Assembly: GCA_026075535.2 (NCBI GenBank)
Contig: AP026541.1
Coordinates: 1-64,000, forward strand
DNA length: 64,000 nt
Source of the DNA: Tricholoma matsutake
Lineage: Eukaryota > Basidiomycota > Agaricomycetes > Agaricales > Tricholomataceae
Direction of reading: 5' to 3'
The notes under the pieces were generated by a model. That model had not been told where the DNA came from. It made no database searches and worked only from the letters and a program-made list of their open reading frames with translations. Positions 1 through 61,105 of this stretch are shown one piece after another. Numbering within the stretch: the first letter of the stretch is position 1; the number at the start of each line of letters is the position of its first letter. The position numbers were made by a program, and so were the translations under genes.

Positions 1-87
1 CCCTAACCCTAACCCTAACCCTAACCCTAACCCTAACCCTAACCCTAACCCTAACCCTAACCCTAACCCTAAACCCTAAACCCTAAC
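1..87. repeat. Telomere repeat (CCCTAA)n, chromosome left end
   Basis: Uninterrupted CCCTAA hexamers run from base 1, with two CCCTAAA variants near 70-82, and stop at about 87. The C-rich strand reading 5' to 3' into the chromosome is what a left telomere should show (TTAGGG type, usual in filamentous fungi). The repeat passes directly into the body of a gene copy without a spacer; see the junction finding. Confidence 0.97.
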
Positions 88-1297: not shown

Positions 1298-1394
1298 GGT
1301 AGATGTTAGATGTTAGATGGTAATCGATAAGACGTATGATAAGGGGTATGTCACAACCCCATGTGACAGCGTAGCAGAGCTTATATTGTTCTCG

Positions 1395-2330: not shown

Positions 2331-2388
2331 CATTTATTCATAGAAGTACAGGTAGCAATTCAAAAAAATAAACGACGAAATTAAATTA

Positions 2389-3346: not shown

Positions 3347-4378
3347 GGTGGTTGACTCGAAAGACTTATTGATCATGCGATCCGTAGCGATAAGGTGACA
3401 CGTGTTTGGATGCCTGCGTCATTCTTGCGTTTTATCACGTGGTTGACTGCGAGATACTGTTAAAATTTCCTTGTGGCAAGTTCCCGTGACCACAGGTGAC
3501 AACGATATCATGCCAGATGCAGTTAAAATTTAGGTGTCACAGGACATGGACGCCTGTGACGTCCTCGTACACTCGGCGAACATATGATATGGCAAGTCAG
3601 TGCGACCGCAGGCGACAACAATATCGTGCCAGATACCCTTTAAATTTCCTTTTACAACCTCTTCTGAGCCTGGCACCCCAGAAAGACGACACAGCCTTAC
3701 AGGCTTGGAACTCGTTGTGTGATAATAATTAGATGGCGGACACTCAGTAGTAATATAATTGACTATATTCAATGCTAGAATATACGAGCGTTAGTGTAAG
3801 TACATACCCTAAGTAATCTGTAATGATAAACACGATATAATACTCACCTCAGTACTCATATAAGTAACTGAAGTGACCGAAGAATCTATCTAGCTATATA
3901 CATGTTGTGTTAGACAACGGGATAATGGGAGAAAGGTAACTATCAGATGTTTGTCCGGGCGCATCAAAGGGATGCACTAAGAATAGAATACGCATCAAAT
4001 ATGCCGACCGCAACGTGCCGACCGCATGTGATCACAGTGTGAATCTCAACAAACATAGGCACGGACATGGCCGTCTGGGACGTCCGTGTACAGTGGGTGA
4101 ACACATGATATGATAAGTCAGTGCGACCGCAGGCGACGACAATACTGTGCCAGATACCCTTACAATTTCCTTTTCCTACCTCTGGCCAGTCCATTAGACA
4201 ACATTGGCATGACCATGGACGTCTGGGACGTCCGTGTACACTGGGTGAACACATGATATGGTAAGTTAGTGCGACCACAGGCGACAACAATATTGTGCCA
4301 GATACCCTTACAATTTCCTTTTCCAACCTCTGGTCAGTCCATTAGACAACATAGGATGGACATCTGGGACGTCCGCGT
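3347..4378. repeat. Intergenic region with scattered minisatellite fragments
   Basis: No gene is seen. Single or partial units of the ~150 bp minisatellite occur at about 3484-3660 and 4070-4345, separated by AT-rich unique sequence. The same layout recurs at 48481-49560. Confidence 0.8.
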
Positions 4379-4445
4379 ATGATACAAGTCAGTGCAATCG
4401 CAGGTGTGCTTCCAATCGTCCTTCTGATTCACACTTGTCGATCGC

Positions 4446-4482
4446 GGTTTAACTTTAACTTTAACTTTAACTTTAACTTTAT
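4446..4482. repeat. CTTTAA hexamer run (five units)
   Basis: A perfect (AACTTT)n run with the same 6 bp period as the telomere repeat. Copies 43650-43677 (inverted) and 49953-49981 have four units. The repeat lies inside an open frame of about 100 codons (4379-4681) that I do not regard as a gene. Confidence 0.9.
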
Positions 4483-4794
4483 TATGTGGCTGCTTGCAAG
4501 CCCAGTATACTGCTGCAAATATATGACATGGTCATGTGACATCCCTGATTCACACACTCAGCAGGGCGAATTGGGGTGCCTGTGGTCTGAAATCAACCCT
4601 ATCACGGTTAGCCTGGTGTCCAAACCCACAGTGTGTCAAACCCTACAGTGGTTGTCACTAGGTCATGACAACTGCTTTTAGTGTAAACAAATATAAATTC
4701 CACAAGTTACCCTACATCTTGCAAATAGTCTGACAGATATCACATTAAAATCACTTGACAGAATATTGCTGCGTGCAACAATCCTTGGCATGCT

Positions 4795-4945
4795 CGAGAG
4801 AGCATTGTACCCCCTTCTGCCCTCATGGATCCAACCCTAGGTGAGCACTGTACCCCCTTCTGACCCTATGGATCCAACCCTGTGGCCCCCTTCTGCCCCC
4901 ATGGATCAAACCCTGTGGCCAACCCTGGGAGGTCCCATAACCCAA
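4795..4945. repeat. Inner edge of module: 'acccccttctg' repeats ending in telomere-like DNA
   Basis: Three to four ~40 bp units carry 'cccccttctg', 'atggatc' and 'aaccctg'. Module homology ends at 'ggaggtcccat'. The next bases here are AACCCAAACCCAAACCCCCC, a degenerate C-rich telomere-like tract. Confidence 0.75.
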
Positions 4946-5082
4946 ACCCAAACCCCCCACAACAAAGATGAAGCACAGAGAAACAAGGAGAAGAAAACAG
5001 ACAAACAAAAGAAGGATCAATGAGAAACCTACCATGGGTCCAAGTAGAAGGAGGCAGTAAGGAATTCTTCAGGATAAGATTT

Positions 5083-15000: not shown

Positions 15001-16877
15001 GAAGGTAAAGGACAAGGGAAAGAAGAAAAAGAAGGATGCAGAAGAAACAAATGTGGCAGAAGAATATATTACGTTCCAAGCAAATGAAGAGCAGTACAAC
15101 TTCGATACCTATGATGCTTGTAATGCTGATGCAAATGATGAGCAATTGATCTACTATGATTGGTTAGCAGACACAGCAACAACATCTCACATTACGCATC
15201 AAAGAGAAGCATTTACCGATTACACACCTTTGAGGAATATTTCTGTCACAGGTGTAGGTGGTAAAGAAGCATTAATTTTAGGGCGCAGAACTGTTGAATT
15301 AAAATCAACATGCAACAGCACTGACTATATTCTGCATTTGTAGAACATTCTTCATGTGCCTGGAATACAAAGTAATTTAATTTCATTGGGGCCATGGGAT
15401 GCAGCTGGTGGACACTACAATGGCGGGAATGGAATAATCACACTCATCACAAAAGATGGAATGGTGGTAGCACAAGGAACAAATATATGCAAACATCTGT
15501 ATCACATGAAGATGGCTATTAGACATCCCACACCATGCAATATAATCCACCCTCACCAAACATTTGTCGAAAATAATACACTACCTACATGGGAAACATG
15601 GCATCGACGCTTTGGACATGTTGGATATACTGGGCTTCAAAAATTATTAGACGGAAAAATGGTTGATGGATTTATTGTGGATGAGGACTCACTCCCCTAA
15701 GCGGAATTGTGTTGTGTGCACAGAGGTGAAACAACATGTCAAACAGTTCCCAAAATCATCAATCAGAAATACCGAACCCAGTGAATTAATGCATATTGAC
15801 TTATGGGGAAAGTACACAATCCGATCGATCAATGGCAATCAATACTACTTGTTATTTGTGGATGATGCCAAGAGATTTGCAACCGTCAAATGTGTCAAGC
15901 AGAAATCTGATGCAGCACAAGCCATAATAAATTATTTGGCACATTTGAAGACTCAAGGGAGGAATCCAAAGGGTATTCAAATTGACAATGGGAAGGAATT
16001 CGTAAATGAGAAGTTGGAAAGTTGGTGCAAGGAACACGGTATGGAAATTTGTTACACTGCACTGTATTCACCTTCACAGAATGGTATTGCCGAATGGATG
16101 AACTGTACACTGGTTGAACTCTCTCGAGCAATGATAATCACCAATGATCTTCCTGAATTTCTCTGGGAATATCAGGTCCTGCATGCCGCTTATCTCCATA
16201 ATCAATCATTCACCAAACATTTGCTGAAATCTACACCATATGAAGGCTGGTATAATAAAACACCAAACATCTCTCATTTATGTGAATTTGGTGCACCTGT
16301 ATGGATTTTATTACAGGGACAACAGGTGGATCAAAAAATGCAGGCAAAATCCAAACGGCACGTTTACGTCGGTTTTGAAGATGGCACTGGGGCCATAAAA
16401 TATTATAATGCCGAAACACGCAACGTCCTCACCTCAAAAAATTTCAAGCAGATGACACTTCCAGAATCAACTCCTATCCCCCAGGGCATCAACATTACAC
16501 CCAATAGTCAACACAAGGGGGAGTCTGTGGGGGGCGCACCACCTATGGGTGTAACAGGCTCAGATGATATAACTCCAACTCTTGATCCTGGCAGCAAAAG
16601 GCATAAAAGAAATATATTGGAGGATGATATAGACTTAAATGCTCCATGGAAGACTCGTGGGATTCATATCAATTATAAAAACCTTCAAGATCCTTATTCA
16701 GTAGAAGAAAAGGAAGATAACTTTCTTACAATGGAAGAAGTTTATGCAATAATTGCTGGAGATGAGATGATGAGCCTCAAGGACACCAAGAATTCCCCCG
16801 ATTGGCCAGAATGGGAAAATGCCATACAAGCTGAACTCAACTTACTGAAAGAGAAGGGGACTTGGGGAATTTGTTGA
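15001..16877 (+). pseudogene. pol: copia protease and integrase region
   Basis: Continues in the gag phase. The aspartic protease motif DTATTSHI lies at about 15170. The integrase zinc region begins with 'WHRRFGHVGYTGL' (15600) and 'CVVC' (15710). The DDE core shows 'MHIDLWG', 'IDNGKEF' and 'SPSQNGIAEWMN'. A TAG at 15341 and a frameshift near 15695 break it. A second frameshift near 16862 separates integrase from reverse transcriptase. Confidence 0.88.
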
Positions 16878-18315
16878 AAAACTGCCCGATGCAATCCCAA
16901 TTGCCAATAAATGGGTATTCATCAAGAAGTGTGACAAACAAGGAAAAGTAATCAGGTACAGAGCAAGACTTGTGGCCAAAGGATGTGCACAATGTCCAGG
17001 GTACGATTATATGGAAACATTTTTGCCTGTGGTTAGAATGGACACTCTGCATGCAATTCTGGCTTTAGTACCGATGCAAAGCCTTAAATTGCAACAAATG
17101 GATGTCAAAGGTGCATATCTCAACAGCACATTACATGAAACTATCTACATGCGGCAATCTGAAGGATATGAAGATGGAACAGACTGAGTTAGTAAGCTGG
17201 TCAAACCATTATATGGATTAAAGCAAGCTGTATGCGAATGGAACAATGAACTTGATGGGAAACTCAAGAATCATGATTATCAATGCTTAACATCGGATCC
17301 ATGTGCATATATTCGACGAGATGGTGGTGACTATGGTATTCTAACCATCTGGGTTGACAAATCGCTTCTATTTGCATCATCGGATCAAATGATGGATCAC
17401 ATGAAGAATGCGCTAAGCTCAGAATAGAAAGTTATGGATCTAGGGGAACCACACAAGATCGTCGGCATTGAAGTAAGGTGTACCGACAATTCTATTTCCA
17501 TTTCTCAACAAAAATATATTGAGAACCTTCTTCACAAAGAAGAGATGCTGGATGCAAACCCTGTTGCCATACCTATGGACCCAAATATTAAATTTGCACC
17601 AAATCGGGACAACAATGAATTAAATCGTAGCAATTCATATGCTAGATTGCTGGGGTGTTTACAATTCATCTCAAATTCCACAAGACCGGATATTAGCTTT
17701 GCAGTCAACAAACTAGCTGCTTACACTGCTAACCCGGGTCTTCAACACCATGGTGCAATAAAGTGGATACTCAGGTACCTAGCAGGTACAAAAACTCTGG
17801 GGATAACTTATAGAAAAACCCCTGATGAAACTAATACTAATAACCTCTTCCATGGTTATGCTGATGCCACTTTTGCAAATGCCAATGACCATAAATCTAC
17901 TACTGGCTACGTCTTCCTAGGATCAGGGGGAGCAATCACGTGGAAATCGAAGAAGCAAACTGTGATCACACTTTCCTCAATGGAAGCAGAATATGTAGCT
18001 CTTTCAGAGGCTGGATGTGAAGCAACATGGCTCAGAAATTTGTATGGTGAACTTGGATTTCCTCAAAATTATCCAACTATTATTAAAGGTGACAACAATG
18101 GTTCTGTCATATTAACCCACAACCTGCAATTCCCTCAGCGATCAAAACACATTGCCTCATGTCATCATTGGGTCCGAGATCTCGTAACCAATAAAATACT
18201 CGATATTCAAAATTGTCGCGACCCGGAACAAACAGCGGACACATTGACAAAGGCACTACCGAGGCCCAAGTTTACGCAACATAGGGTGGAGATGGGAATA
18301 AAGTTGATTAAGTAA
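16878..18315 (+). pseudogene. pol: copia reverse transcriptase and RNase H
   Basis: The RT region has 'ANKWVFIKK', 'RARLVAKG', 'QMDVKGAYLN' and 'KPLYGLKQ'. The catalytic box normally reading YVDD is WVDK here (17349-17360), so the second metal-binding Asp is lost. Stops lie at 17185 (TGA) and 17425 (TAG). The last part, 17434-18315, is open for 293 codons and carries the copia RNase H signatures 'GYADATFAN', 'TLSSMEAEYVALSEA' and 'DNNGSV'. Confidence 0.92.
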
Positions 18316-19306: not shown

Positions 19307-21538
19307 TCAACATCTGGCATCCCTCTGTAATGCTTCAGACATAGCATCCATCATTTCGATGTCGTGTTCACAAGTAATCAGCATGCCATCCCGTGCTCCT
19401 TCAGGCCGCCATAGATCATCTCCATAATGAGTGTTCATTGGGTATCGAACCTTTCCACTCTCCCCTGCCCAGTCAAAATCAAGAAGAATGACGTGTCCGT
19501 TAGAAGAAACCATGACATTTGTGTCCCGGATGTCACCATGCACATAACCAGATTCATGCAGCTGGTCGATGACAGCTCGAATCTTGTCCGTGTGTATGAG
19601 AGATTCAGATTCATGGAGCATGTCATATCCTTCGATAAAAGTCATCACAACCATATACCATCCACCAGGCATACTCTCGAAGCCCAGGAGCTTCGGCGCA
19701 GCATTAATCGAAGCACAATATTCATGCACCTCCTTTGAATACTGACGAACAAATTTGACACAAAGATCAGAGCTGCCATCGCACAGTTTCGCGCGAAAAA
19801 TGAGCTTGTTGTTGTCCAAGTGAGAGCGATAAACAAAGCTTTGTTTCTTCGAATCCACAAGTGATGTGAAAGATGTCGGATATGGGAACAGTTGCATGGG
19901 CTGGGGTTGTGATTGGTTTGGAGGAGAAGGTGGGTTACGGGTGTGATATTCGTCCTCGTAAAAACGCTTGATACAATTAATGGCTCTCGTAGATGCTCCC
20001 AGTTGTCGCGCAGCCATCATCTTCAACCTTGTATCCGAAAAGTGGAAATGAAATGGTAGAACTGAGAGGATCTGTAGATTAGGGCGATTGTTCCAAGCTG
20101 CACCGGCGAAACATAGGTAGGGGCCTGGCATATAATTCGAGCTTAGTAAACAAGGAGTCAAGGACAGCTGAGGGGAACGAACCAAAAACGAGCATAATCA
20201 GACACGGCAGCGAGGATTGCGAGTATTTAGGAGCCAGTTTCCGGGTAAACTCTAGATAATATAGCGCGGCTTGAAGGTACGGTTCAGCACCTGACCATCC
20301 CACATCGTTCTTGAATTCCGCGAGAAGCGTGACGAATCGTCCCGAGGTCATATCTCCATCAGTTTCGAAACTTCCGATCTTGGTTGGTCGGAGGTATATC
20401 CCGTACGATTCGAAGACATCGCGGATAGCTTTTGCGCGGGATTTTTCGTCTGCGTAAATGTGGGACATGGCTGTGTGCAACTTGAGCACGACATCGTGGT
20501 CCGTTTTATTTGGCACGTAGTTATCGCAGTCATCAATGAATTCGCCGAATACGGGGTGGAGAAGCGTGACTGGTATTACATCACTGGCTGAGGAAGGGCG
20601 ATTGCACGCTATTGCCTGTGTATCACGATGTTGACGGCTGGAAAAGTCCGCTGTTTGCCCACGGGCGGAAGGGGACTTGTGAGGGGAGTTATTCAAGAAT
20701 GTGGACCGTAGACCTTCTACCGTCGAAGTGCCGGCAGGAGCGTTGTACGAAGATGGAGGGACTCTATGCAATCGTTGAACTAGCATCGGATGAATACCCA
20801 TGATCATTAACACTGGGGCAAAGCACGTACCAGGAGGCGCATAAACGACGATATGGAGGGTGTTGACGGCAGGAGTGCCGTTTGGAAATACATCCGACAA
20901 TATTTCCGTCGGACGTAAAGTCCTTTCGCGAGGACGCTCTCCAAGTTTCTCTGAAAGATCATCATCGATTTCAATGGAAACGTTCCATAGATCGAGTCTG
21001 TCGGCAGTAATGGAATCGAATGCAGGCTTCTTCTCATCTTTGATGACCTTCCTTAACACCGAGACATTCTCGTTGCTATCGATCTTTACGGAAAATACGC
21101 GTGAGGGATCGTCGCCGAGCACCAGGCAATTGAGGTGGAATAATGGGGGCCCATCGGATGCTTGCCAAAATCCTGTGTTAGGTAACATATAAACAAACGG
21201 AACTAGCAATGCTCACCCGCCTTGACGATCACATGTAGTGTTTCCTCTTCCAGACTCCCAAACACAGAACTGAGCTTCTTCGCGCCTCTCAATGAATCCT
21301 CATTTGCCACTATCCAGTTCAGTTTCGTTTGGAAATCCCGTTTGTCTCCGTCCGTTGGAATGTTGTTAGCGTTCCATAGATCGAGTCTGTCGGCAGTAAT
21401 GGAATCGAATGCAGGCTTCTTCGCTTTGATGACCTTCCTTAACACCGAGACATTCTCGTTGCTATCAATCTTTACGGAAAATACGCGAGAGGGATCGTCG
21501 CCGAAGACGCAACAATTAAGGCTGATGATCGTTGACAT
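19307..21538 (-). CDS. Crinkler-type protein: two tandem CRN headers plus kinase domain
   Basis: Proposed exons are 21538-21217, 21172-20183 and 20124-19307, joined over GT-AG introns of 44 and 58 nt, giving 709 residues in one continuous phase. The first exon and the start of the second each encode a ubiquitin-like Crinkler header ('GDDPSRVFSVKI', 'KPAFDSITADRLDLWN'). The headers are near-identical at DNA level and share 'LHVIV' or 'LHIVV' ends. A linker follows, then a protein-kinase-like domain with 'LCVKFVR' (Lys), 'HGDIRDTN' (catalytic loop) and 'LLDFDWAG' (DFG position). In agarics such CRN-kinase genes form families. In oomycetes, CRN proteins are effectors acting in host nuclei. The role here is unknown. 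The second intron's donor GTTCGT is unusual but keeps 'FGPYLCFAG' in phase. Confidence 0.85.
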
Positions 21539-32785: not shown

Positions 32786-33800
32786 ATTTCCCACCTTTTA
32801 CTTGTTAGAGTCCATTGCAAAGGCCTGTACTCACTGGCTGCACAGCAAGATACTTCTGAGAAGGTATGATGTCAGTATTCTGGAAGTACTCCTAATACTG
32901 CCACCATACTCACCAAGGGATATTTTGCCAGTATGCATACCAATCTAGAATACTACTTCAGTACCTTCAGTACTATCAAAATATAGTACAATACTGTCAA
33001 AATACCTCTAGTGAAGTATGTTGACAATATTAGGAATACTGTCAGGATACTTTCACAGTACTTCTCAGGCAGTATTGTGCCTTGCACCCAGTGACTCTTT
33101 ATTGCCATATGTGCATGTGACTGTTCTGAACAATCATGTGCATGGATTATTACACATGTGACAGTTCTGAACAATCATGTGCATAAATTATTACCCATGT
33201 GATGGTTCTGAACAGTCACATGCATGAATTATATATTTCATTTTTATTTATGGCTACATATATTTAATGTCAAGTCCTGCACATGATAGTTCCGAACTGT
33301 CACATGCATGAATTATTTTTATACATAATTATTTCCCACCCTTTACTTGTTTGAGTTTGTTGCAAAGGCCTGTGTTCTTTATTGCCATATGTGCATGTGA
33401 CTGTTCTGAACAATCACATGCATGAATTATTACACATGTAACGGTTCTGAACAATCATGTGCATGAATTATTGCACATGTGATGGTTCTGAACAGTCACA
33501 TGCATGAATTATACATTGTTTATAGCTACATATATTCTACTATGATTAATGAGAAGTCCTGCACCTGATAGTTCTGAATTGTCACATGCATGAATTATTT
33601 TACTACATAATTACTTCCCACCTTTTACTTGCAAAGGCCTGTACTCTTTAATGCCATATGTGCATGTGACTGTTCTGAACAATCATGTGCATGAATTATT
33701 GCACATGTGATGGTTCTGAACAGTCACATGCATGAATTATATATTTTTATTTTTATTTATGGCTACATAGTTTATTCCCCATGTGATAGTTTTTCACATG
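32786..33800. repeat. Nested tandem repeat of palindromic units
   Basis: A ~275 bp unit beginning 'atttcccacctttta' and 'gcaaaggcctgt' recurs at 32786, 33332 and 33612. Inside each unit are three ~55 bp subunits with 'catgtga(c/t)(a/g)gttctgaac', a palindromic core, ending 'catgcatgaattatt'. The first unit is interrupted by the 262 bp MITE. Confidence 0.85.
32832..33093. mobile_element. MITE, CACTGG termini, copy 2
   Basis: 262 bp, inverted relative to 22205-22466. Comparing the interrupted unit with its two uninterrupted neighbours shows the original sequence was '...gcctgtactcttta...'. The insertion therefore duplicated ACT (3 bp). CACTG ends with a 3 bp duplication point to the CACTA/CMC superfamily, to which Plavaka belongs. 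Confidence 0.85.
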
Positions 33801-40926: not shown

Positions 40927-41439
40927 GCAGAGCACAATAAACATTAACTAGAGTCTAAAACAAGTGCCAACCAAAATTGGGGCTCCTAAGTAAAATTGTA
41001 GGCATAGGTAGGGATCACTGGGACCTGCCCTCCATGTACTGAAAATTTTCACAAGACCAGCAGGACCTATAAACATGCATATATATTTTTATTGCATATT
41101 TAAAAATATGAAAAGGCATGAACCATAGAATAAAAGGAGAGTAAAGGGAAAAGAGCATAATAAAAAGAAAAAGAAAAAGAAAGAAAGAAACATAAAGTAT
41201 TAAGGAATATCTTGTAAGCAAAAAGAAAAAAAAAGAAAAACCATAAAAAATCAGTTTTACAGAAGGGGCTCCCATGCAGTAATTTACACTCCTCCACCTA
41301 TTCCGATCGGACTCACTGGAGTCCAGTGGATTCTGGTTATTCCGACCAGATTCTGGTTACTCCAGATGCTCAACTTACAGTATATACCCTAATGGATAGT
41401 CAAATTTCAAGTCTTAAGTTGTCAAAGTGCCTACAAAAT

Positions 41440-41527: not shown

Positions 41528-41623
41528 CCACAGGAGAATTATTAGTTAGTAATATAATGTTTATTCATGACACTCTAATTTTTTTCAAAGTAGTTAAGAT
41601 CAAATTTTTTTAATTAACCACAT

Positions 41624-41882
41624 CCCTCACATTCAATGTGAGGGAGTGGGCATGATTGTGATTATATACAGAAACAAAAAATCCTCCCTCTCACAAGATG
41701 CGAGAGGGAGTTTTATTTATATACATAAAAAGCTAACCCCTCACACCGAATGCGAGGGGGGAGGTAAAAACATGAAGAAAAAAATCCCTCCCCCACGCAA
41801 AATGGGGGAGGGGGGGCACAATACTAATAAATAATTAAAAGTACAAAAAAAATCCCTCCCCACATGAAGTGCGGGGGAGGGG
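41624..41882. repeat. Array of five C/G stem-loops
   Basis: Stems: 41624-41632/41636-41644 (9 bp, CCCTCACAT), 41684-41692/41702-41710 (9 bp, CTCCCTCTC), 41737-41745/41751-41759 (8 of 9 bp), 41786-41795/41803-41812 (10 bp, CCCTCCCCCA) and 41854-41861/41874-41881 (8 bp). The stems differ in sequence, yet both sides change together. AT-rich spacers of ~25-45 bp separate them. Confidence 0.85.
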
Positions 41883-41924
41883 GAGGGGATGCGACCCTGC
41901 TGTTGTCTGTCCTTCCACCAATGA

Positions 41925-42295
41925 TCCACCCCACAAGCAGTTGCTCATGAGGCTGGGGGTAGGTGGCTTGTCATCATTGTCGTTCCACCCACAATCTACT
42001 CCACGAGCAGTTGCTCATGAGGCTGGGGGCGGGTGGTGCATTGTCATCTCCTATCCCTGCACCTGGGTGTTGTTCCACCCATGTTCCACCCCACGAGCAG
42101 TTGCTCATGAGGTTGGAGGTGGGTGGCTTGTTGTTGTTGTTGTTCCACCCACAATCCACCCCATGAGCAGTTGCTCATGAGGCTAGGGGCAGGTGGTGTG
42201 TCATTGTTGTCTCCTGTCCCTGCGCCTGGGCATTATTCCACCCATGTTCCACCCCACGAGCAGTTGCTCGTGAGGCTGGGGGTGGGTGGCTTGTC
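41925..42295. repeat. Dimeric tandem repeat around GAGCAGTTGCTC
   Basis: The palindrome GAGCAGTTGCTC (first unit aagcag) recurs near 41934, 42006, 42098, 42167 and 42259. Spacings alternate 72, 92, 69 and 92 bp, i.e. a higher-order repeat of two unit types. Single copies also occur near 51110, 54020, 54250, 56770 and 58390. Confidence 0.85.
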
Positions 42296-42956
42296 ATTGT
42301 TTGTCGCTGTTGTCCCCATTTGGATTTCTGTCTCTTTTTTTTTTTTGGGGGGGGGGGGAGGGGTTTGGGCATGTCAGTGCGATGTGGTGCATGTATGGGG
42401 GCTGGTGGGTGCTTACTAGGCAGGTATCCCCCTTCTGGGGTCTCCTGGCATCCCTCTGCACCCACCTAGCCTGTGTTGACAGCCTCACATCCCATTTGAA
42501 TGGGGAGGAGGGCATCAGGTGGGTGTGGGCATGGGTTGCACATTTTTCTGTTGTGCATTTTCCACTGCAGCAGGTTGTCCCCAGTAGTATATAGCCTAAA
42601 AAGCAATAAATTAAAATTAGTTGATTGATAAAAAGAAAAAGAAAAAAGAAAAAAACTTATCTATGGCCCAAACAACAATTGCCATCATTTGGGCCCGCGT
42701 TCCATCCAGTCGGCTCATTTGAAGGTGGTGGTGATGGTGGCAGTGGGCATGGGGATGGTGGTGGTGGGTGCGCCTGCAGTGGTGGTGGTAGAGTGGAGAG
42801 GAGGAGGAGGCAGTGTTGACGACGGTGGTGGTGGTTGTGAGCTGGCAGTCACATGTCATGTGTCATGCAATATGCATGTGTGCGTATTCCGTTAATGGCT
42901 GTAACTATGCACCTTGGTTGGGTAATAAAAGTATTAGATGTATGTAGATGAATAAT

Positions 42957-43022
42957 GACTTGGTAGCTCAGTGGTTAAGCGTGCTGTTATGTGTGCAGAC
43001 CCAAGGTCGAGTGTTCAATTCT
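42957..43022 (+). repeat. tRNA-like Pol III head, second type
   Basis: 'ttggtagctcagtggttaag' is a strong A box and 'gtgttcaattc' a B box. It does not fold as a full tRNA. Confidence 0.55.
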
Positions 43023-43195
43023 TGTTGCATGTCGAAATTTTATTTGGGAAAGCACATGCATTCCAGTTATTCCAGTTATGCTAGTGCTGTGCATCCAGTT
43101 GATCTGACTGTTCCAGGTAAAAATGAGTCCGGGTAGATTCCAGAGGTAAAATTGACCCTCTAGTCCAATCAGAATTATAGGGGTTTAGGGTTATG

Positions 43196-44340
43196 GGACC
43201 TCCCAGGGTTGGCCACAGGGTTTGATCCATGGGGGCAGAAGGGGGCCACAGGGTTGGATCCATAGGGTCAGAAGGGGGTACAGTGCTCACCTAGGGTTGG
43301 ATCCATGAGGGCAGAAGGGGGTACAATGCTCTCTCGAGCATGCCAAGGATTGTTGCATGCAGCAATATTCTGTCAAGTGATTTTAATGTGATATCTGTCA
43401 GACTATTTGCAAGATGTAGGGTAACTTGTGGAATTTATATTTGTTTACACTAAAAGCAGTTGTCATGACCTAGTGACAACCACTGTAGGGTTTGACACAC
43501 TGTGGGTTTGGACACCAGGCTAACCATGATAGGGTTGATTTCAGACCACAGGCACCCCAATTTGCCCCGCTGAGTGTGTGAATCAGGGATGTCACATGAC
43601 CATGTCATATATTTGCGGCAGTATACTGGGCTTGCAAGCAGCCACATAATAAAGTTAAAGTTAAAGTTAAAGTTAAACCGCGATCGACAAGTGTGAATCA
43701 GGAGGACGATCGGAAGCACACCTGCGATTGCACTGACTTGTATCATACATGGACATCCCAGATGTCCATCCTATGTTGTCTAATGGACTGACCAGAGGTT
43801 GGAAAAGGAAATTGTAAGGGTATCTGGCACGAGAAGAGGAATGATATATAGTTCTCGTAGTCATACTCAGCTCAGCCCCGGTTCGATAGCAGCAGGGTTA
43901 ATTACCATTGAAACCCACGGTCTCTCTTCTAAGGATTCCAGTGTGTCACATCCGCTCCCAGAGACATTAGTATGTTTGCTTAGACTAGATTTGTAATTGA
44001 CACCAGCATACCATGAGGCAATCAGATATTTCTACCGGTTGTAAATGTAAAGGGTATCTGCAATGATATTGTTGTCGCACTGAATTACCATATCATGTGT
44101 TCACCCAGTGTACACGGACGTCCCAGATGTCCATGGTCATGCCAATGTTGTCTAAAGGACTGGCCAGAGGTAGGAAAAGGAAATTGTAAGGGTATCTGGC
44201 ACAGTATTGTCATTGCCTGTGGTCGCACTGACTTACCATATCATGTGTTCACCCAGTGTACACGGATGTCCCAGACGTCCATGGTCATGCCAATGTTGTC
44301 TAATGGACTGGCCAGAGGTAGGAAAAGGAAATTGTAAGGG
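43196..44340 (-). repeat. Subtelomeric module, inverted partial copy
   Basis: Inverse of 49294-50436, symmetric about 46817, and identical over long stretches, for example the 98 codons at 43746-43450 and 49885-50181. The outer edge reads 'ggggtttagggttatggg', a telomere-like TTTAGGG remnant. Beyond 44340 only minisatellite pieces match, up to about 44500. Confidence 0.92.
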
Positions 44341-44624
44341 TATCTGGCACAATATTGTTGTCGCCTGCAGTCGCACTGACTTACCACATCAAAATTGTAA
44401 GGGTATCTGGCACAATATTGTTGTCGCCTGCAGTCATGCAGACTTGCCATATTATATGTTCACTGTTGTCTGGTGGAATAGCAAAAGGTTGCAAAAGCTG
44501 TAACAAGCAATAGTGGGAAACCCATATCCGCGTCTGAGTCATGTCTAAACATTGCAAGGATCACTAACTATAACTATACCAGACATGTAAAAAAGAAAAC
44601 TGAATTCAGTAACCTGCGCTTATC

Positions 44625-46580
44625 TCAGGACCTGAGCCTGCATGTATGTAGGTAATCGGGTATTAACCTGATAGTAGTGTTCACCATGGTCCAAGTATGG
44701 ACAGCGGTGACCCAGCGGTAGAGACCTACTGTAAGACTTCTCTCCAACTCATTGATGTAGTAGTGGAATTTTCCATCCCTCCCTTGTAAAACCCCAACGT
44801 CAACGTGGCAGAAGACTTGTAATGATGATAAATGATCACGTCGTCTGGTATTCTCAATGTTGAGGACTGCCTTCACCAACCCTTCCATGAAGTTTACAAA
44901 TTCATTATGGCTGGCAGTTGCCCAATCCGGCGTCAGATTCTCATTGCATATTTCTTTGGAAAACCCCCCCTCGTGGAGCACCGGTCCAAGGTGACCTGCA
45001 TCCCCAGGTCTACAAAGTGTTAGTTATCTTCCAAAGTATTGCGAATGTTGGGCTTACTTTAGTTGTTTCAAGGGTGTGTAATTGTCAACCAACTCGAAGT
45101 TGTGGGTCCAACCACCAGTGCTTTGTGGCCACGTATGAACAGCATGTAGTAGCTTACCTCCGACAACAAAAGCCCTAATCTCTCCCTTCTCCACTAAAGA
45201 AGGCATCCAAGGCTGGGCTAACCATGCCGGACGGGGCAGGCACTCGATTCCTTCGTACAATATTTCTGACTCAGCATATTTCTGGGGAACTGTCTCGGTT
45301 CGGTGGTCGGCACCCCTGTCCCTCGCAGGGAGAAATGTGCACGTTGTCGAGTCGCTGAAGTTGCGTTTAACAACAATGTTGACGTTGTTGCATGCCGTCC
45401 TGAGATCCTGCTCATTGGTCAACGTCAGAGATTTGGGATAGGGGGTCTTTGTCACAGTCATTGCAGCGGTCATGAGTCATTGTCATGCTGAACCTTGCAT
45501 GCCGATGCAAGAAGATCTTGTGGGTGGGGGAACATTGGAACATCGAGGGACAACTTGAGTAAGTTGCACCAAAATTGGTCAATATTCGTCCGATTCAATC
45601 CTGGATGTTCAGTACTAGAATAAATATCATTCAGAGGTTAATGGAGTATATGAGGAAGCATGGTACGTGCATGTAGTCGATAGCAAGGCTAAAACCTCCC
45701 ACCATAAGGCTGAGATTTGACATATTGGTGATATGGCTGAAGTTTCCGCTGAGTAGAATCTCTACAAACATGTCCCATTTCATCCATTGAACAGACCACC
45801 CTGCTTCCAGAAATGCAATTGCCCAGACCATCTGGTAGAACCATAATCAGATAAGAATATCCAAAGTGATACAATACTTGCCATGTCATGTATTTGGTAC
45901 AACTCTAGGTCTGGATTATGGTTGTCCTTATGGGCCCACTCCCAATAGGCCATTCCTGCAGGGGCTGTCTGAATTGCAGCCTTAATAGGGCCTGGGGTAT
46001 TCCTTTCCATGACATAGTGATCGTACGTTAAGAGAGTCATGACACTTTCGAGGCTATTCGGCTCTGTACAGATACGAGGACTCTCAACCACGAGCAGTTT
46101 CGGCCAAGTACTCGATGCACTGCCTGAATTACCCGGATGTGATTGTACAGACATAGAGGCTATTGCTTCAGGCAGAGATTGAAGATCTGGCAGTGGGTGA
46201 GGTGGCAGAGCACCTGAATAGGCGTCGTTGAGTGGTGTGGCAGGGATTAGTGATTGGAATTGAGGTGGAATGTGTCTGTGGTACTTGGTATAATGGCCGA
46301 GATGCGGAATGCAAGTGGCATACTCTTCATTTGTTAGTGCGCGACCTGGACTATCAAAATTTCCACACGCATCAGTGCAGTTTGGATGTACTTCTCTTGA
46401 TTGGATATGGAAATTTAAGTGGTGGCCGTCCTTTAGGGTCAAAGGAGCTTGTCGCATCCATGCAGGCTGTCTGCGTGACCGGTTTGCTGCAGCCTGGGTT
46501 ATTCAACATCCGCACATGTGTGGACAAATCTCAAAGCCTAGCTGTGGATACCCTTGCCATCTCGCGGTACTTTCAGACAT
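44625..46580 (-). pseudogene. Subtelomeric multigene-family protein, copy 2 (inactivated)
   Basis: The 5' exon begins at the ATG near 46580 and runs to about 45780. It is followed by coding pieces near 45831-45631, 45600-45054 and 44981-44625. The last has 'FCHVDVGVLQGRDGKFHYYINELER', shown here only to 45 residues from its start, and 'RWVTAVHTW', the C-terminal part missing from copy 1. It is dead: CGA at 1220-1222 of copy 1 is TGA here (46503-46505), and one G is missing from a 'gaggtc' string at about 45474, shifting the frame. No function is known. Confidence 0.75.
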
Positions 46581-46689
46581 GGTAGATGTTAGATGTTAGA
46601 TGGTAATTGATAAGACGTATGATAAGAGGTATGTCACAACCCCATGTGACAGCGGAGCAGAGCTTATATTGTTCTCGCCTGCTGTCGTC

Positions 46690-47455
46690 GATACTGTGCC
46701 AGATACCCTTACAATTTCCTTTTCCTACCTCTGGCTGGTCCTTTAGACAACATTGGCATGACCATGGATGTCTGGGACATCCGCGTACACTGGGTGAACA
46801 CATGATATGGTAAGTCAGTGTGACCGCAGGCGACAACAATATTGTGCCAGATACCCTTACAATTTCCATTTCCTACCTCTGGCCAGTCCATTAGACAACA
46901 TTGGCATGACCATGGACGTCTGGGACATCTGTGTACACTGGGTGAACACATGATATGGTAAGTCAGTGTGACCGCAGGCGACAACAATATTGTGCCAGAT
47001 ACCCTTACAATTTCCATTTCCTACCTCTGGCCAGTCCATTAGACAACATTGGCATGACCATGGACGTCTGGGACATCCATGTACACTGGGTGAACACATG
47101 ATATGGTAAGTCAGTGCGACCGCAGGCGACAACAATATTGTGCCAGATACCCTTACAATTTTGATGTGGTAAGTCAGTGCGACTGCAGGCGACAACAATA
47201 TTGTGCCAGATACCCTTACAATTTCCATTTCCTACCTCTGGCCAGTCCATTAGACAACATTGGCATGACCATGGACGTCTGGGACATCTGTGTACACTGG
47301 GTGAACACATGATATGGTAAGTCAGTGCGACTGCAGGCGACAACAATATTGTGCCAGATACCCTTACAATTTCCATGTCCTACCTCTGGCCAGTCTTTTA
47401 GACAACATTTGCATGACCATGGACGTCTGGGACATCCATGTACACTGGGTGAACA
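46690..47455. repeat. Subtelomeric minisatellite, copy 2
   Basis: Units start near 46697, 46847, 46992, 47138, 47206 and 47352. The 68 bp spacing marks one internally deleted unit. The gcaggcgagc expansion of copy 1 is absent. Confidence 0.92.
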
Positions 47456-47521
47456 GATGATAGCATTTATTCATAGAAGTACAGGTAGCAATTTAAAAAA
47501 ATAAACGACAAAATTAAATGG

Positions 47522-48480
47522 TTAGATACTCCGACTGCACCTGGGGCATGAGTACGCTTTCCACATCTTTTTGATGACAAAGTCCTGCAAAAAATTTTCG
47601 CCCAACAGCGCCAACCAATTCTCTGGCAAGGCGCCTCCGTCTCTCCACTCCTGGATCAGCCCCTGTTGAGAGCCGCTGCCTGTAGTGGCCCAGTTGTTGT
47701 TGAAGTTGTACTCATCCATATGGCCTCGGACCATAGGCCTGCGCATTACTTCATTTAGTATCTCCAGAAATCCATCTCGAAGGGTCTCGATATCGAGGGT
47801 TCCCTGGTTACTGGGGACCTTGAAATCAGGGCTGTTGTCGTCCTCACCGATACACTCGATGTCCATCCAAACTCCGCATGGGTAGCAGTACCACTGGCGA
47901 TCCTCGTGGGGGACATAGAACTCTTCACAAACCAGGCATGGTGTTTTCGTACGTCGAATGAACCAGATCTGGCTGTTCATTCGCGGTGGATTTGGTAAGG
48001 CGTCGTCAAATTCCCGAAAATATGCTCCAAGCTTATCGATAATTTTCTCCGATGAAAGCCAATCCACATCGTCCTCCAGCAAAACCAGTTCGGTCGGAGA
48101 CAAATTTTTGTCACTGCTGTGGGTTCCAGTTGAGTTGATTAGAGAGTTCACAATAACGAGCCACTCACTTTCGGGTATCAGTATGGTCTGTGTAGAACTG
48201 CAGAAAAAACCAGGCGGGAGCGCCCAGTTTCATGTGAATCTCCCTTACATGCACAATCCAAAAATCCCTTCGGAGGTTTTTGTTGGCAAGTCTTCCCTTC
48301 GGAACCACATAAATGCTTGAAGAGAAGTCGGGTAAGATTGATGCAGACATAGATCAGCTAGATTGGCTGGGCTTACCAATCGTTCAAGCTGACCGTGACA
48401 GAGTCGCCATTGCCCTCCACAACTGTCTCAGTCACCATGGGGAGCTTTTGAGTCTTTCTGGAATTGGCTTCAGAGACCAT
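47522..48480 (-). CDS. BAH-PHD domain protein, copy 2 (three exons)
   Basis: Exons by collinearity with copy 1: 48480-48377, 48315-48169 and 48116-47522, 281 residues. All three exons stay open and the GT-AG borders are conserved. The BAH core ('YVVPKGRLANKNLRRDF', 'HVREIHMKLGAPAWF') and the PHD cysteines (CLVC, CYPC, WMDIEC, CPRC) are kept. Amino-acid differences from copy 1 include R/W, N/Y and P/L changes, several explained by CpG transitions. The neighbouring family gene in the same module is dead, so maintenance of this frame suggests either selection or recent duplication. Confidence 0.78.
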
Positions 48481-49566
48481 GGTGGTTGACTCGAAAGACT
48501 TATCGATCATGTGATCTGTAGCAATAAGGTGACACATGTTTGGATGCCTGCGTCATTCTTGCGTTTTATCACGTGGTTGACTGCGAGATACTGTTAAAAT
48601 TTCCTTGTGGCAAGTTCCTGTGACCACAGGTGACAATGATATCGTGCCAGATGCAGTTAAAATTTAGGTGTCACAGGACATGGACGCCTGTGACGTCCTC
48701 GTACACTCGGCGAACATATGATATGGCAAGTCAGTGCGACTGCAGGCGACAACAATATTGTGCCAGATACCCTTTAAATTTCCTTTTACAACCTCTTCTG
48801 AGCCTGGCACCCCAGAAAGACAACACAGCCTTACAGGCTTGGAACTCGTTGTGTGATAATAATTAGATGGCGGACACTCAGTAGTAATATAATTGACTAT
48901 ATTCAATGCTAGAATATACGAGCGTTAGTGTAGGTACATACCCTAAGTAATCTGTAACGATAAACACGATATAATACTCACCTCAGTACTCATATAAGTA
49001 ACTGAAGTGACCGAAGAATCTATCTAGCTATATACATGTTGTGTTAGACAACGGGATAATGGGAGAAAGGTAACTATCAGATGTTTGTCTGGGTGCATCA
49101 AAGGGATGCACTAAGAATAGAATATGCATCAAATATGCCGACCGCAACGTGCTGACCACATGTGATCACAGTGTGAATCTCAACAAACATAGGCACGGAC
49201 ATGGCTGTCTGGGACATCCGTGTACAGTGGGTGAACACATGATATGATAAGTCAGTGCGACCACAGGCGACGACAATACTGTGCCAGATACCCTTACAAT
49301 TTCCTTTTCCTACCTCTGGCCAGTCCATTAGACAACATTGGCATGACCATGGACATCTGGGATGTCCGTGTACACTGGGTGAACACATGATATGGTAAGT
49401 CAGTGCGACCACAGGCAATGACAATACTGTGCCAGATACCCTTACAATTTCCTTTTCCTACCTCTGGCTGGTCCTTTAGACAACATTGGCATGACCATGG
49501 ACATCTGGGACGTCCGTGTACACTGGGTGAACACATGATATGGTAATTCAGTGCGACAACAATATC
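48481..49566. repeat. Intergenic, scattered minisatellite pieces (copy 2)
   Basis: Collinear with 3347-4300. Minisatellite fragments occur at 48610-48790 and 49200-49560. No gene. Confidence 0.75.
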
Positions 49567-50436
49567 ATTGCAGATACCCTTTACATTTACAACCGGTAGA
49601 AATATCTGATTGCCTCATGGTATGCTGGTGTCAATTACAAATCTAGTCTAAGCAAACATACTAATGTCTCTGGGAGCGGATGTGACACACTGGAATCCTT
49701 AGAAGAGAGACCGTGGGTTTCAATGGTAATTAACCCTGCCGCTATCGAACCGGGGCTGAGCTGAGTATGACTACGAGAACTATATATCATTCCTCTTCTC
49801 GTGCCAGATACCCTTACAATTTCCTTTTCCAACCTCTGGTCAGTCCATTAGACAACATAGGATGGACATCTGGGATGTCCATGTATGATACAAGTCAGTG
49901 CAATCGCAGGTGTGCTTCCGATCGTCCTCCTGATTCACACTTGTCGATCGCGGTTTAACTTTAACTTTAACTTTAACTTTATTATGTGGCTGCTTGCAAG
50001 CCCAGTATACTGCCGCAAATATATGACATGGTCATGTGACATCCCTGATTCACACACTCAGCGGGGCAAATTGGGGTGCCTGTGGTCTGAAATCAACCCT
50101 ATCATGGTTAGCCTGGTGTCCAAACCCACAGTGTGTCAAACCCTACAGTGGTTGTCACTAGGTCATGACAACTGCTTTTAGTGTAAACAAATATAAATTC
50201 CACAAGTTACCCTACATCTTGCAAATAGTCTGACAGATATCACATTAAAATCACTTGACAGAATATTGCTGCATGCAACAATCCTTGGCATGCTCGAGAG
50301 AGCATTGTACCCCCTTCTGCCCTCATGGATCCAACCCTAGGTGAGCACTGTACCCCCTTCTGACCCTATGGATCCAACCCTGTGGCCCCCTTCTGCCCCC
50401 ATGGATCAAACCCTGTGGCCAACCCTGGGAGGTCCC

Positions 50437-52189
50437 ATCACCCTAAGATGGTGGGTGGAATGATGATGAGGGGGATGGGAGATGAGAGGAGACAAGGGGG
50501 GAGGGGGAGAGAGACAATGAGGGAGATGACAATGGCACCCACCTGGGGGGGAGGAGGGGAGACAGCAAGGGAGACTGACAGGGATGACGCCGCCACGGGG
50601 TAAATATGGGGGTGTAAGAGTGTGGGAACGACAGGGAACAGGGAAGGAGGGATGACAATGACAACGTGCAGCCCTGCCACCACTGACTGCTATGTGAGAG
50701 GCGAGAGTCACGGGCACATGAGCAGGATTGTGGGGGGAGAGGGTGGCCCTCGCATTTGCGAGGGGGTTTTTTTTTTTTGTCAAATTAGTAGTCCTCCCAC
50801 TCATGAGGGAGCTTAGATGTATATTACATAAATCATACCCCTCATATGTGTGAGGGGGTCAACAAACTATATCATAAATCTATAAAAATTAAGTGACTAC
50901 TTGAATAGTTTGTGTGGACTCCGCGCAGACTGGTGTGGACTCTGTGTGGAAGGGGGTGTAATTTTTCATTTTGGTCACCAGATGGTTGGACTCCACATGG
51001 AGTCCCCACAGTCCATGCAGAACATATAGGGCAGTGTAAATTACAGTCATGTGGTGGCTATGTTGACATTCCCTCACCATTTTATTGTTGCTCCCCATTC
51101 CTACCCCATGAGCAGTGGCTCACAGTGGCAGTTGGGGTTGCTGTGATGGTGGTGGCATCATTGGGCATGGGCTTGTCATTTCAGCATCATTGTGCCATTG
51201 GAACATGGTTGGATCCCCTAGATTATTGAAAACATATGTTAGTTAAACAAAAAACATGAAACATTCATTCACCTGTCGTCCTCATTTTCATTGTTCTAGT
51301 CATCCTGTCATCATTGTCTCCCCCTCATTGTCCTCTCCCTCGACCTGGTCCCTGTCATTGCCATCTGCTTCCTCGTTGGGTCCCTGGTTGGGTGTGGTGT
51401 GGTGTGGTGGCATTGTTGTCACTCCCTTGCTGTGTTATCATTGCTCCCCATTCTAGTGGCTCATGGCAGCAATTGGGGTTGCTGTGGTGGTGGTGTTGTT
51501 GGGCATGGATTTGTCATTTCGACATTGTTGTGTCATTGTAACACAGTTGGATCCCCTAGATTAATGAAAACATATGTTAATTACACAAAATAAAACATGA
51601 AACAAACATGGAAAATTAGATGGCAAGGGGGCATGACAGGCCCTGGTCATCATGGTGAGAAACAAGAGAAAATGTTGTATTTGGTTAGTAAAGAATATGC
51701 AAAGAAGGAACCAAAAAAGTACTTATTATGATCTAAAATCACACTGCTCACTGTATGGATTAGGGAATGATGGTGGACCATGGTCAAAGTGGATGGTGTG
51801 GTTTGAATTTTGGTGGTGGTGATTGCATGCATGATATGTTACCATATTAAAATTACTTTCCCACCACCAAAGATTTTCAACATACATACAATGATACATC
51901 ACAGCCAGTTGAATTACACTCACCACAAAGCCGCAGCTTGATGGCTTGGCTTTGGCTTTTCAGAACCCCAAAGCTGTCATGAAGCCATCAACTTGGCCTG
52001 GCTTGGCTTTGCCCATGGCCTCAGGCCAGGCCAGGCACAGCACTATCATTGGATACACTGTTGGACATGGCCTGCATTTCCACTGAGGACCTCCTGGTAA
52101 TATTTCAGTGTGCTGCACAGATCCTTTGCTGTGTGGAATGAGAGGCCTAGCTTTTTAATCTGTGATTGGCTGATTTCAGAATGGTTGAT
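50437..52189. repeat. Modular hairpin-rich repeats and low-complexity DNA
   Basis: Purine-rich low-complexity sequence (50450-50600), a hairpin array (50745-50868), GGACTCC/GGAGTCC palindromes (50920-51010) and two related ~290 bp direct repeats (about 51070-51240 and 51430-51580, 'ttggatcccctagatta'). An 'aagcc/ggctt' word cluster lies at 51930-52040. No gene. Confidence 0.6.
50745..50868. repeat. C/G stem-loop array, second site
   Basis: Three stem-loops: CCCTCGC-GCGAGGG (~50747), CTCCCxCTCATGxGGGAG (~50793) and CCCCTCA-TGAGGGG (~50838). The first is followed by a run of T. They belong to the same class as 41624-41882, with different stem sequences. Confidence 0.8.
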
Positions 52190-54404: not shown

Positions 54405-54560
54405 CCACCCCCTCCCCCCCATTTTGTGGGGGGGTGGGTTTTTTTAGTTTTAAATAGTATAATTAAATAGTATAATTAATTGTCCCCCCCTGCATTTTCG
54501 TGGGGTTTTTTTTTTTCATCTATATTAATTATATTACTCCCTCGTATCTTTGCAAGGGCT
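54405..54560. repeat. C/G stem-loop array, third site
   Basis: CCCCCC-attttgt-GGGGGG (~54413), CCCC-GTGGGG (~54486) and a weak ACTCCCT-AGGGCT (~54537), spaced by AT-rich DNA, upstream of the tRNA-like head at 54650. Confidence 0.7.
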
Positions 54561-54647
54561 CAACAATTTTTTTTACAAGCTCTCATGAAGTTAAAGTGAA
54601 CTATCTCTAAGTGCTTTAAATGGACATTAATTACATATCTATTAATT

Positions 54648-54735
54648 CTCCTGTGGCTCAGCCTGTTGAGCACTTGTTTGGTGGTCATATGACTTACATC
54701 CCAAGGTCCATGGTTCAATCCCTGCTCTACCCATT
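54648..54735 (+). repeat. tRNA-like Pol III head (SINE-like)
   Basis: 'tcctgtggctcagcctgttg' (A box) and 'tggttcaatccctgc' (B box, near consensus), about 50 nt apart. Same family as 41440-41527 and 60577-60662. Confidence 0.68.
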
Positions 54736-55173
54736 TATTCTGTAAGCACTTCGTGAAAAGTTCACCAAGTTAAGTCTTCCAAAATGGTGGTATTCCAACT
54801 TCATGTTGGAATTGCATAGGACTTTACTAGGACTTTACTAGGAATTTCTTGGAAACAAGAGTACATGGTCATCAAGATACATTCTGATTGGATTCCTATT
54901 GGACTCCTAGGACTCTGATAGGAATACAGGGGGGAGTGCAAAGTCTTGCAACTCTCAATGACATTACCAAATGTGGTAAGCATTCGGTGACAATCATTCT
55001 GATTGACATGGCCCATTTCTCCACTTTTAGAGTGGGTTAGAGTTAGGGAGGTGTATTCTACAACCTACAGAAGAGTTTGCAAGGTCTTAGGATGACAGGC
55101 ACTGGGGAATCCAAGTGCATCCTGTTTTGCTTTTATAAGCTCTTCAGGTCCTGTATTCTCGCACTGACAATTA

Positions 55174-59455: not shown

Positions 59456-60429
59456 GCCTGCTTTGTGTTTGTTCATTGGCAATGCTTCAGGGGTGGGTGA
59501 ACATTGATGGTGGGAGTTGTCAAGAACCATTCCTTGCCCGATCAGAACCTGCATCCATCCGACTCTTTCCCGCACGTTGAACATGACTTTTGTCTATGCC
59601 TCCCAATTTTGTTCCCAGCCGCCTTGCACTGCCCATGCTGCTGTGCATCAGGCTGCCTTGTACAGCATCCACGGCTGCCGTCTCTATTGCAAATTCAACT
59701 ATGGATTCCTGTGCACCTCCCATAGGTAATTTATCTATGCAGTCGAGACACTGCCGCAGTCTTCGTTCCTGTTCCACATTATTCTGGACTACAGTATTTA
59801 AGCTTAGTTAGTTTTGCCTTGTATTCCTCAGTTCATATATCGACATAGACTCGACTTTACCCTGCCAAACCTCCTTCTACTCCAACCCCTGTCCTCTAAG
59901 AGTCTGAACTACATTCAACTCAACCTCTAGTCTCCCTCCGAAGTTCTAGTCTCATCTGAACTCAACCTAAGTCCCTCCATATTTACCTGCACTTTCCCAC
60001 TCCTACCTCTAAACCCTCGAGGACACCAGACAAGGTGAAGGGCGCAGCTTCTTACAAGCTGAAGCCAAGTCCTTTCCATTCCCCCTCCTGCAGAATCCGC
60101 ATTGACCTGACAATCTCCCACTATCATCACCCACAGTGTCCAGTTGGATTCTGAAGCGGCCTCTAGGATCAGTTCTTAACAGGAGTTGTGCATGTAGGAG
60201 TTGTTTGTTGTCATGGGAGTCAACTGGCAAATGGTGCCACTTTTGTTTTTTTGAGCACAAACATGACCACATGGTCTGTGCGCAGCCACAGGGTATATAA
60301 GCACCCAGCAAATGACTGTATTTTCCCCCAGGCTTCTCCCTCTTCATGTAAATACAAGTATATTAGTATAAATAGTTATTATATTCATACTTTTTTTTAC
60401 TGTACATGTACATTTTAGCCAGTAATTTA
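59456..60429. other. No gene called; possible retroelement start or LTR
   Basis: An 85-codon minus-strand frame (59777-59520) and a GGGTATATAAGCACCC box at 60291 hint at a decayed retroelement, but no paired LTR or protein domain was found. Confidence 0.3.
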
Positions 60430-61105
60430 CAGTGCCCCACATGTCCTAGCGGACTCCGCATGGACTGTGTGGAGTCCGAGCTAGTCTGTATGCAGAATCT
60501 GGGTCAATTTGATATCTTACGAGTTCCAAGCTTTTCAGACTTTATGAAAGTCATGACGTGCCTACAAAATATATGTGTGCAGAGCAAGGATTGAACCCAA
60601 GACCTCCAAGTCATCACACAACAAACCAAACACATGTGATCAACCAGTTGAGCCACAGGAGAATTATTTGTTAGTAATACATAGTTTATTTATGACACTC
60701 AAACTCAAACTCAAGTATTTATCTTTCAAAAATTGAACAAATAAATTTTATTAACTGCATCCCTTGCATTAGACGCGAGGGAGTATACAATACAATCAAA
60801 GAAATTACAAACTATAGATTTAAAAAAAAAAACTCCCCCCAAAATGTGGGGGAGGGCTAAAAGAAAAAGAAGAAAAAAAAACCCACCCCACGACCCCACG
60901 ATGGAGGCGGGTGGCTTGTTGTCATTTGTTGCCATCGTTCCACGTTTGGGTTTCTGTATTATTTTTTTGGGGGGGGGCAGTGGGGTTTGGGTGCGTCAGT
61001 GTGACGTGGTGCAATTACGGAGGTTGGTGGGTGCTTACTAGGCAGGTATCCCCCTTCTGGGGTCTCCTGGCACCCTCCTAGCCTGTGTCGACAGCCTCAC
61101 ATCCC
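60430..61105. repeat. Modular hairpin-rich composite repeat, copy B
   Basis: Same order as 41285-42500 but shorter: GGACTCC palindromes (60450-60480), minus-strand tRNA-like head (60577-60662), two stem-loops (60757-60780 and 60833-60854), 'gggtggcttgttgtc', T-run/G-run (60960-60980), 'gcttactaggcaggtatccc' and 'cagcctcacatccc'. The GAGCAGTTGCTC array is missing. Confidence 0.75.
60577..60662 (-). repeat. tRNA-like Pol III head (SINE-like)
   Basis: The minus strand 'ctcctgtggctcaactggtt' (A box) and 'gggttcaatccttgc' (B box) are closer to consensus than in 41440-41527, with which it shares at least 85 bp. Confidence 0.68.

Follow-up and report, generated by a model that had tools for sequence, protein, structure and literature searches.

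The window analysed here is a stretch of 64,000 nucleotides of the Tricholoma matsutake genome (GenBank assembly GCA_026075535.2, contig AP026541.1, positions 1 to 64,000 of the forward strand), which begins with CCCTAA telomere repeats and contains groups of short GC-rich hairpins at four sites. The hairpins that the original prediction placed there were borne out at all four, with five at the first site (41624-41881) and two or three at each of the others. They do not constitute a free-standing element. Each site is part of one of several related high-copy transposon families, termed A to D for the four sites, and the features are as follows.

41269..41276, plus strand: left target duplication CTCCCATG; an identical octamer stands directly after the right end of the subtelomeric copies L032 and L034
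41277..43178, no strand assigned: family A non-autonomous transposon copy, its right end lost at 43178 to a subtelomeric repeat
41277..41303, plus strand: left terminal inverted repeat (TIR), core GAATAGGTGGRGGAGTGTAA
41450..41535, minus strand: stretch resembling Pol III boxes (tRNA-like) and directed towards the left end, with A/B-box-like motifs seen by eye
41624..41644, no strand assigned: hairpin A-h1, with an inverted-type loop in the window copy (TTCAA for TTGAA)
41684..41710, no strand assigned: hairpin A-h2
41737..41759, no strand assigned: hairpin A-h3
41786..41812, no strand assigned: hairpin A-h4
41854..41881, no strand assigned: hairpin A-h5
41913..42306, plus strand: G-rich tandem repeat with palindromic GAGCAGTTGCTC, adjoining the array in family A
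42958..43035, plus strand: second stretch resembling Pol III boxes, directed towards the right end, seen by eye and not called by ARAGORN
50747..51046, no strand assigned: family C region with hairpins at 50747-50764, 50794-50811 and 50838-50857 and relatives elsewhere in the genome; its terminus, CTGTAATTTACAC on the reverse strand, ends at 51046
54410..54948, no strand assigned: family B region with hairpins at 54410-54438, 54487-54505 and 54537-54558, a box-like stretch seen by eye at about 54645-54740 and a terminus near 54948
60420..60854, no strand assigned: family D region with terminus CAGTAATTTACAG at 60420, hairpins at 60761-60781 and 60833-60854 and a box-like stretch seen by eye

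Folded as RNA, the region 41610-41890 attains a z score of -9.24, with none of 200 shuffles as good, and the other three sites score -2.83, -3.87 and -4.51, values equalled by 3, 0 and 0 of 200 shuffles. Perfect GC-rich stems of at least 7 bp number 22 in the window, about five times the 4.5 +/- 2.0 found in 30 local dinucleotide shuffles; six of them fall within the four sites, and six others represent one subtelomeric repeat. In the 161.04-Mb assembly of 13 contigs on which the genome-wide counts were made, the pattern CCCTCGC-N1..8-GCGAGGG occurs at 393 places and the reversed pattern at none. A scan of the window against Rfam gave nothing at the gathering score, and two weak matches to anti-hemB within the loci (21.5 and 20.6 bits against a cut-off of 49.5), which reflect a hairpin plus a run of T, were rejected.

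A subtelomeric block recurs in the window at 84-4950, 43181-44463 and 45368-50446, once in inverted orientation, and contigs C6 and C11 each have, close to their beginning, a family A copy flanked in the same way (L032 and L034), pointing to subtelomeric duplication. Elsewhere in the window, two open reading frames with Copia-like integrase and weak reverse-transcriptase matches occupy 15663-18315, an open reading frame with a Crinkler N-terminal domain (E 2.9e-22) lies beside a weakly kinase-like one (19307-21209), and nested tandem repeats of 41 and 280 bases are found at 33094-33740.

The left end of the window copy of family A, CAGTAATTTACACTCC, lies at 41277, and homology in other copies continues beyond 43178. 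Copies of this family start with C(A/T)GTAATTTAC(A/C)CTCC and end with GGAGTGTAA(A/T)GTACTC. The TIR core GAATAGGTGGRGGAGTGTAA has 725 exact matches in the genome, the reversed control having none, and among the first 100 matches listed, all of them on contig C1, 17 of the 19 neighbouring inward-facing pairs span 1.6-2.9 kb. Fourteen A loci were taken as carrying both ends by a script that missed L032 and L034, the right end of which is one base shorter, though both are flanked by CTCCCATG. Ten of the fourteen have flanking 8-bp duplications matching at 7 or more of 8 positions, eight of them perfectly, and the flanks of the remaining four are alike at only 5, 2, 5 and 3 of 8. For family B the duplication is present in two of three both-end copies, the third having no match. 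These figures cover A and B; families C and D were assigned from their termini and arrays only. Box-like stretches were judged by eye against the consensus of the A and B boxes, and none is visible by eye in family C. The sole ARAGORN tRNA call among the loci scanned (L001, 3024-3115) lies outside the box-like stretch.

A first look at dispersed matching DNA yielded 798 candidates for the array of the first site; for the sites at 54.4, 50.7 and 60.7 kb the numbers were 327, 28 and 443, respectively. The A copies used here are the best 40 of 1553 candidates by box-like stretch and the best 40 of 798 by array, the B copies the best 40 of 327, and for C all 28 were scored; since copies were picked by best score to the window copy, the sample leans towards similar copies. 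Sixty A loci gave 52 aligned arrays, L031 and L048 having been dropped as duplicates and L002, L012, L023, L032, L037 and L043 left out because the script match did not span the array. There were 30 B loci, with L080 a duplicate, and the C rows comprise the window copy and 13 further copies. One copy of D was read and one of a fifth family, E, with one more D/E-like match in L087. In all five families the hairpin array lies near the same end. An 11.2-kb TIR pair on C1, considered as a full-length element, was rejected, a transposon of family E with its own array being nested in its hairpin h1. Three A arrays were seen to be interrupted inside a hairpin, one in h3 (L012) and two at almost identical positions in the left arm of h1 (L023 and L098); palindromes perhaps attract insertions.

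The most plausible reading of these families is that they are non-autonomous KDZ transposons. One inward TIR pair on C1 spans 10.1 kb, has the same termini as family A and encloses a match to KDZ transposase (PF18758, E 9.5e-51 at C1:3003942-3004496 with one internal TGA; E 2.6e-28 for the scanned piece), together with a weak match to CxC1, a KDZ-associated domain (E 0.00044, under the curated cut-off). The flanks of this copy, GGACCAAC and GGACCAAT, are alike by eye at 7 of 8 positions. From the right-type end it presents an A-like box-like stretch and interior followed by the KDZ coding piece, and at the opposite end the array of hairpins is again present together with the G-rich repeats. 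KDZ matches just inside A-type TIRs on C1 form 4 TIR-hit pairs (3 distinct hits) where 1.3 are expected (P 0.06), which is suggestive only, and the same count gives two such TIR-hit pairs for hAT matches. The original prediction had recognised no named element of this kind. The carrier does belong to a recognisable class, and the other part of that statement stands, as no description of such an array was found in the open-access literature searched. The word hairpin is absent from the main text of the T. matsutake genome paper (PMC10211490) and of the T. bakamatsutake paper (PMC10627285).

Other carriers were weighed against this assignment. There is some residual chance that KDZ is a separate element nested in a family A copy, given that the link is that of one long copy with about 5 kb of its interior outside the sequence read, and that the other long TIR pair on C1 proved to be a nested insertion; on the other hand, no second A-type terminus motif occurs in the 3.6 kb and 0.9 kb examined from the two sides of the 10.1-kb copy. 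A retroelement with a tRNA-like head, such as a SINE, might be proposed on account of the A/B-box-like motifs at both ends. We regard it as extremely improbable, because it is refuted by the inverted termini and the 8-bp duplications, where a SINE would lack TIRs and have duplications of variable length, and neither ARAGORN nor Rfam calls a tRNA in the box-like stretches. A hAT rather than a KDZ carrier appears very unlikely. Domains of hAT type are common in this genome, and 8-bp duplications such as those found here are usual for hAT elements in the text available from PMC12730594, but the single long relative that was read encodes KDZ and, weakly, CxC1. Of the 15 hAT matches listed on C1, two are located inward of a TIR and no more than 9 kb from it, and no hAT match was obtained in the three scanned pieces of the 10.1-kb copy.

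It might also be argued that the individual hairpins are small palindromes mobile in their own right, comparable to the repetitive hairpin-forming elements or to the mitochondrial GC clusters, since the hairpins are alike and array size varies by family, from two to five. The order of the hairpins, however, is identical in the 52 aligned A arrays, the losses seen in L007, L010, L013, L014, L021, L022, L026 and L027 cut arms and spacers instead of removing single hairpins cleanly, and there is no clean pair of empty and filled sites among these A copies. Mobile palindromes may have given rise to the arrays originally, whereas for their present spread the idea is refuted by the shared flanks; we give this explanation as a whole a very small chance. 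The KDZ reading does not depend on the loop inversions described below.

The variation of the stems bears on a further claim, namely that the two sides of each stem change together and that the folded form is thereby maintained. The comparison behind it was made between different hairpins, which were noticed because they pair, and it fails when the same hairpin is followed across copies. The pairing test covered seven hairpins (A-h1 to A-h5, B-h1 and C-h1, with B-h2, B-h3, C-h2 and C-h3 left out) in up to 52 A arrays (44, 45, 49, 52 and 50 rows for A-h1 to A-h5), 21 rows of the B2 subfamily of B, the flipped L086 included, and 14 C rows. Out of 2638 pair cells, 295 are not Watson-Crick (78 of those being G.T), against 22 in which both sides have changed and pair, so that unpaired stem changes are the commoner, and the refuting comparison named in the original prediction came out against covariation. 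Watson-Crick cells number 2343, against 2338.1 +/- 6.1 after shuffling right arms among copies (P 0.22), a result that rests on A-h2, A-h3, B2-h1 and C-h1, the only hairpins with pairs variable on both sides; arm pairing across copies is thus that of random re-pairing. By hairpin, B2-h1 tends below chance and A-h3 and C-h1 slightly above it, and three A-h3 pairs are doubly changed in 2, 5 and 1 copies, against about 1.4, 4.7 and 1.0 calculated by hand under independence. Nor did this test reveal arm homogenisation above chance.

The same picture emerges genome-wide. With the outer CCCT/AGGG held fixed, both arms have CG at 393 sites, one arm has changed at 863 (399 + 464) and both have changed and match at 301, where independence predicts 437, 776 and 345; one-armed sites are hence in excess (chi-square 19.7), although these patterns cover just two of the possible CpG states and family A supplies part of the excess, its h1 left arm having CA in 44 of 44 complete rows. 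Reversed controls for the three pattern sets gave 0, 0 and 3 sites. In the light of these results, selection on the folded form, as RNA or as DNA, with compensatory changes that preserve stem pairing, seems improbable, and at the level of copies it is already largely refuted. Some observations do favour it: the hairpins of an array differ in stem and yet each is complementary, several loops have GCAAAATG-like cores in common, the outer stem of h4 type differs between A and E and pairs in both, and own arms pair better than swapped arms, a comparison that we do not count as support because the hairpins had been chosen for pairing. Against it stand the lack of arm coupling within families, the genome-wide excess of mismatched over matched sites, the outer stem of h1 type, which shows no differences other than CpG transitions among A, B, D and E, and the h4-type hairpin of B, which carries an uncompensated stem change.

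Stem variation follows instead the pattern expected from the decay of methylated CpG, methylation being its presumable cause. Per-site transition rates in CpG-type columns are 0.22 for hairpins and 0.18 for spacers, and in other columns 0.0035 and 0.0076, respectively, with the proviso that a CpG column was any in which some copy has CG, a definition that favours variable columns. Since a palindrome sets each CpG opposite another, decay yields TG or CA in one arm or the other, and two hits that occur independently may resemble a paired change, which means that CpG decay of palindromes can mimic covariation. Changes of non-CpG type are rarer in hairpins (32/4917) than in spacers (187/10268), a comparison confounded by the A/T tracts of the spacers, and, taken together with the same relative place of the array in all five families, this hints at some constraint on the array block.

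The loops behave differently from the stems, in that they flip to their reverse complement while the stem is kept. Five multi-base cases were found in three families. In A-h5, L018 and L028 each show three neighbouring transversions that amount to an inverted loop, and these copies lie far apart in a tree of the flanking DNA that carries no support values. The B1 and B2 subfamilies of B have mutually inverted B-h1 loops, and L086 shows the B-h1 loop inverted on a B2 background by four transversions. C-h1 is inverted in L101, one of 14 rows, by two transversions. Other changes are compatible with inversion: A-h3 in the long relative L097 differs by one transversion, and 4 of 44 A-h1 rows (L015, L034, L036 and L039) have the inverted-type centre base, again one transversion, two of these four being copies of one subtelomeric segment. 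Since a single transversion suffices in A-h1 and A-h3, these could be point changes instead of flips, and the count was kept at five multi-base events. Outside the hairpins of the A array, clusters of at least two transversions consist of A/T-tract shifts in eight rows, together with a single alignment shift (L056) and a single pair (L028). The border between A and T in the tract that precedes h1 has moved (from CAAATTTTTTT to CAAAAAATTTT, for example) in L003, L004, L007, L014, L017, L026, L047 and L053, which could reflect slippage or a flip of the tract itself.

The suggestion of a hairpin-templated process in the original prediction thus survives in limited form, as multi-base loop inversion in place in A-h5, B-h1 and C-h1. 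Inversion of loops or spacers by template switching has been described (in the text available from PMC8604942 and PMC8794818), and for yeast PMC8604942 reports, in its available text, that 9 of 10 spacer inversions occurred in already perfect arms. Here, perfect arms are found in 3 of 4 flipped and 6 of 40 unflipped A-h1 rows (Fisher 0.023, the rows not all being independent), and in 1 of 1 flipped and 9 of 49 other A-h5 rows (Fisher 0.20, with L028 excluded for a gap). Such flips are what template switching at inverted repeats is known to leave behind, and we infer that switching, rather than cruciform recombination, produced them.

Taken together, these results can be accommodated in a single account, in which the hairpins would form a subterminal palindrome block of several related KDZ-superfamily transposon families, mostly as short non-autonomous copies, and transposition would spread this block. 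After insertion, each arm would decay separately by CpG transitions, as in methylated repeats, so that stems lose pairing, and the palindromes would occasionally act as template-switch points in DNA replication, flipping a loop while the stem stays. Building on the observed transposon structure, copy number, KDZ link in one long copy, arm independence and loop flips, we consider this account as a whole likely. As to the role of the array, our best guess, which is a tentative one, is a cis-acting DNA site near the left transposon end, perhaps bound by the transposase. A more specific proposal, that the array is a working cis part of KDZ transposons, which extrudes as DNA hairpins near one end and serves transposition or replication, the flips being by-products of that process and not of ordinary replication, strikes us as unlikely; if true, it would represent a KDZ terminal architecture not yet described in the open-access papers searched. 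Should the array be needed for KDZ mobility, a structural part would be added to a little-studied group of transposons. In any case, an apparent puzzle of RNA-like covariation becomes a feature of transposons, and the hundreds of copies in one genome offer a natural system in which the inversion of loops at short nuclear hairpins could readily be followed.

With regard to known systems, the window families resemble MITEs and other non-autonomous DNA transposons in their TIRs, fixed duplication length and high copy number, and differ from them in containing an internal palindrome array; they are also longer than typical MITEs. Mitochondrial palindromic GC clusters are short hairpin-forming repeats. 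The repetitive hairpin-forming elements are likewise short hairpin-forming repeats of organelle genomes (text available from PMC2800124), and the likeness to both ends there, for theirs are organellar, whereas the hairpins of the window stand in fixed order inside nuclear transposons. The KDZ (Kyakuja-Dileera-Zisupton) transposons of fungi are matched by the KDZ transposase piece and the weak CxC1 match in the long relative. In the text available from PMC12730594, Zisupton makes 8-bp duplications, the length found in A and B, and Kyakuja makes 7-bp duplications and is devoid of TIRs; hairpin arrays and terminal box-like stretches are not described there for KDZ elements, the word hairpin being absent from the main text. 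Finally, the loop flips resemble template switching at inverted repeats in that the loop is inverted in place and flipped copies tend to have perfect arms, as in yeast (text available from PMC8604942), and they differ from it in that arm homogenisation does not exceed chance and in that inversion recurs at the same palindromes across many transposon copies.
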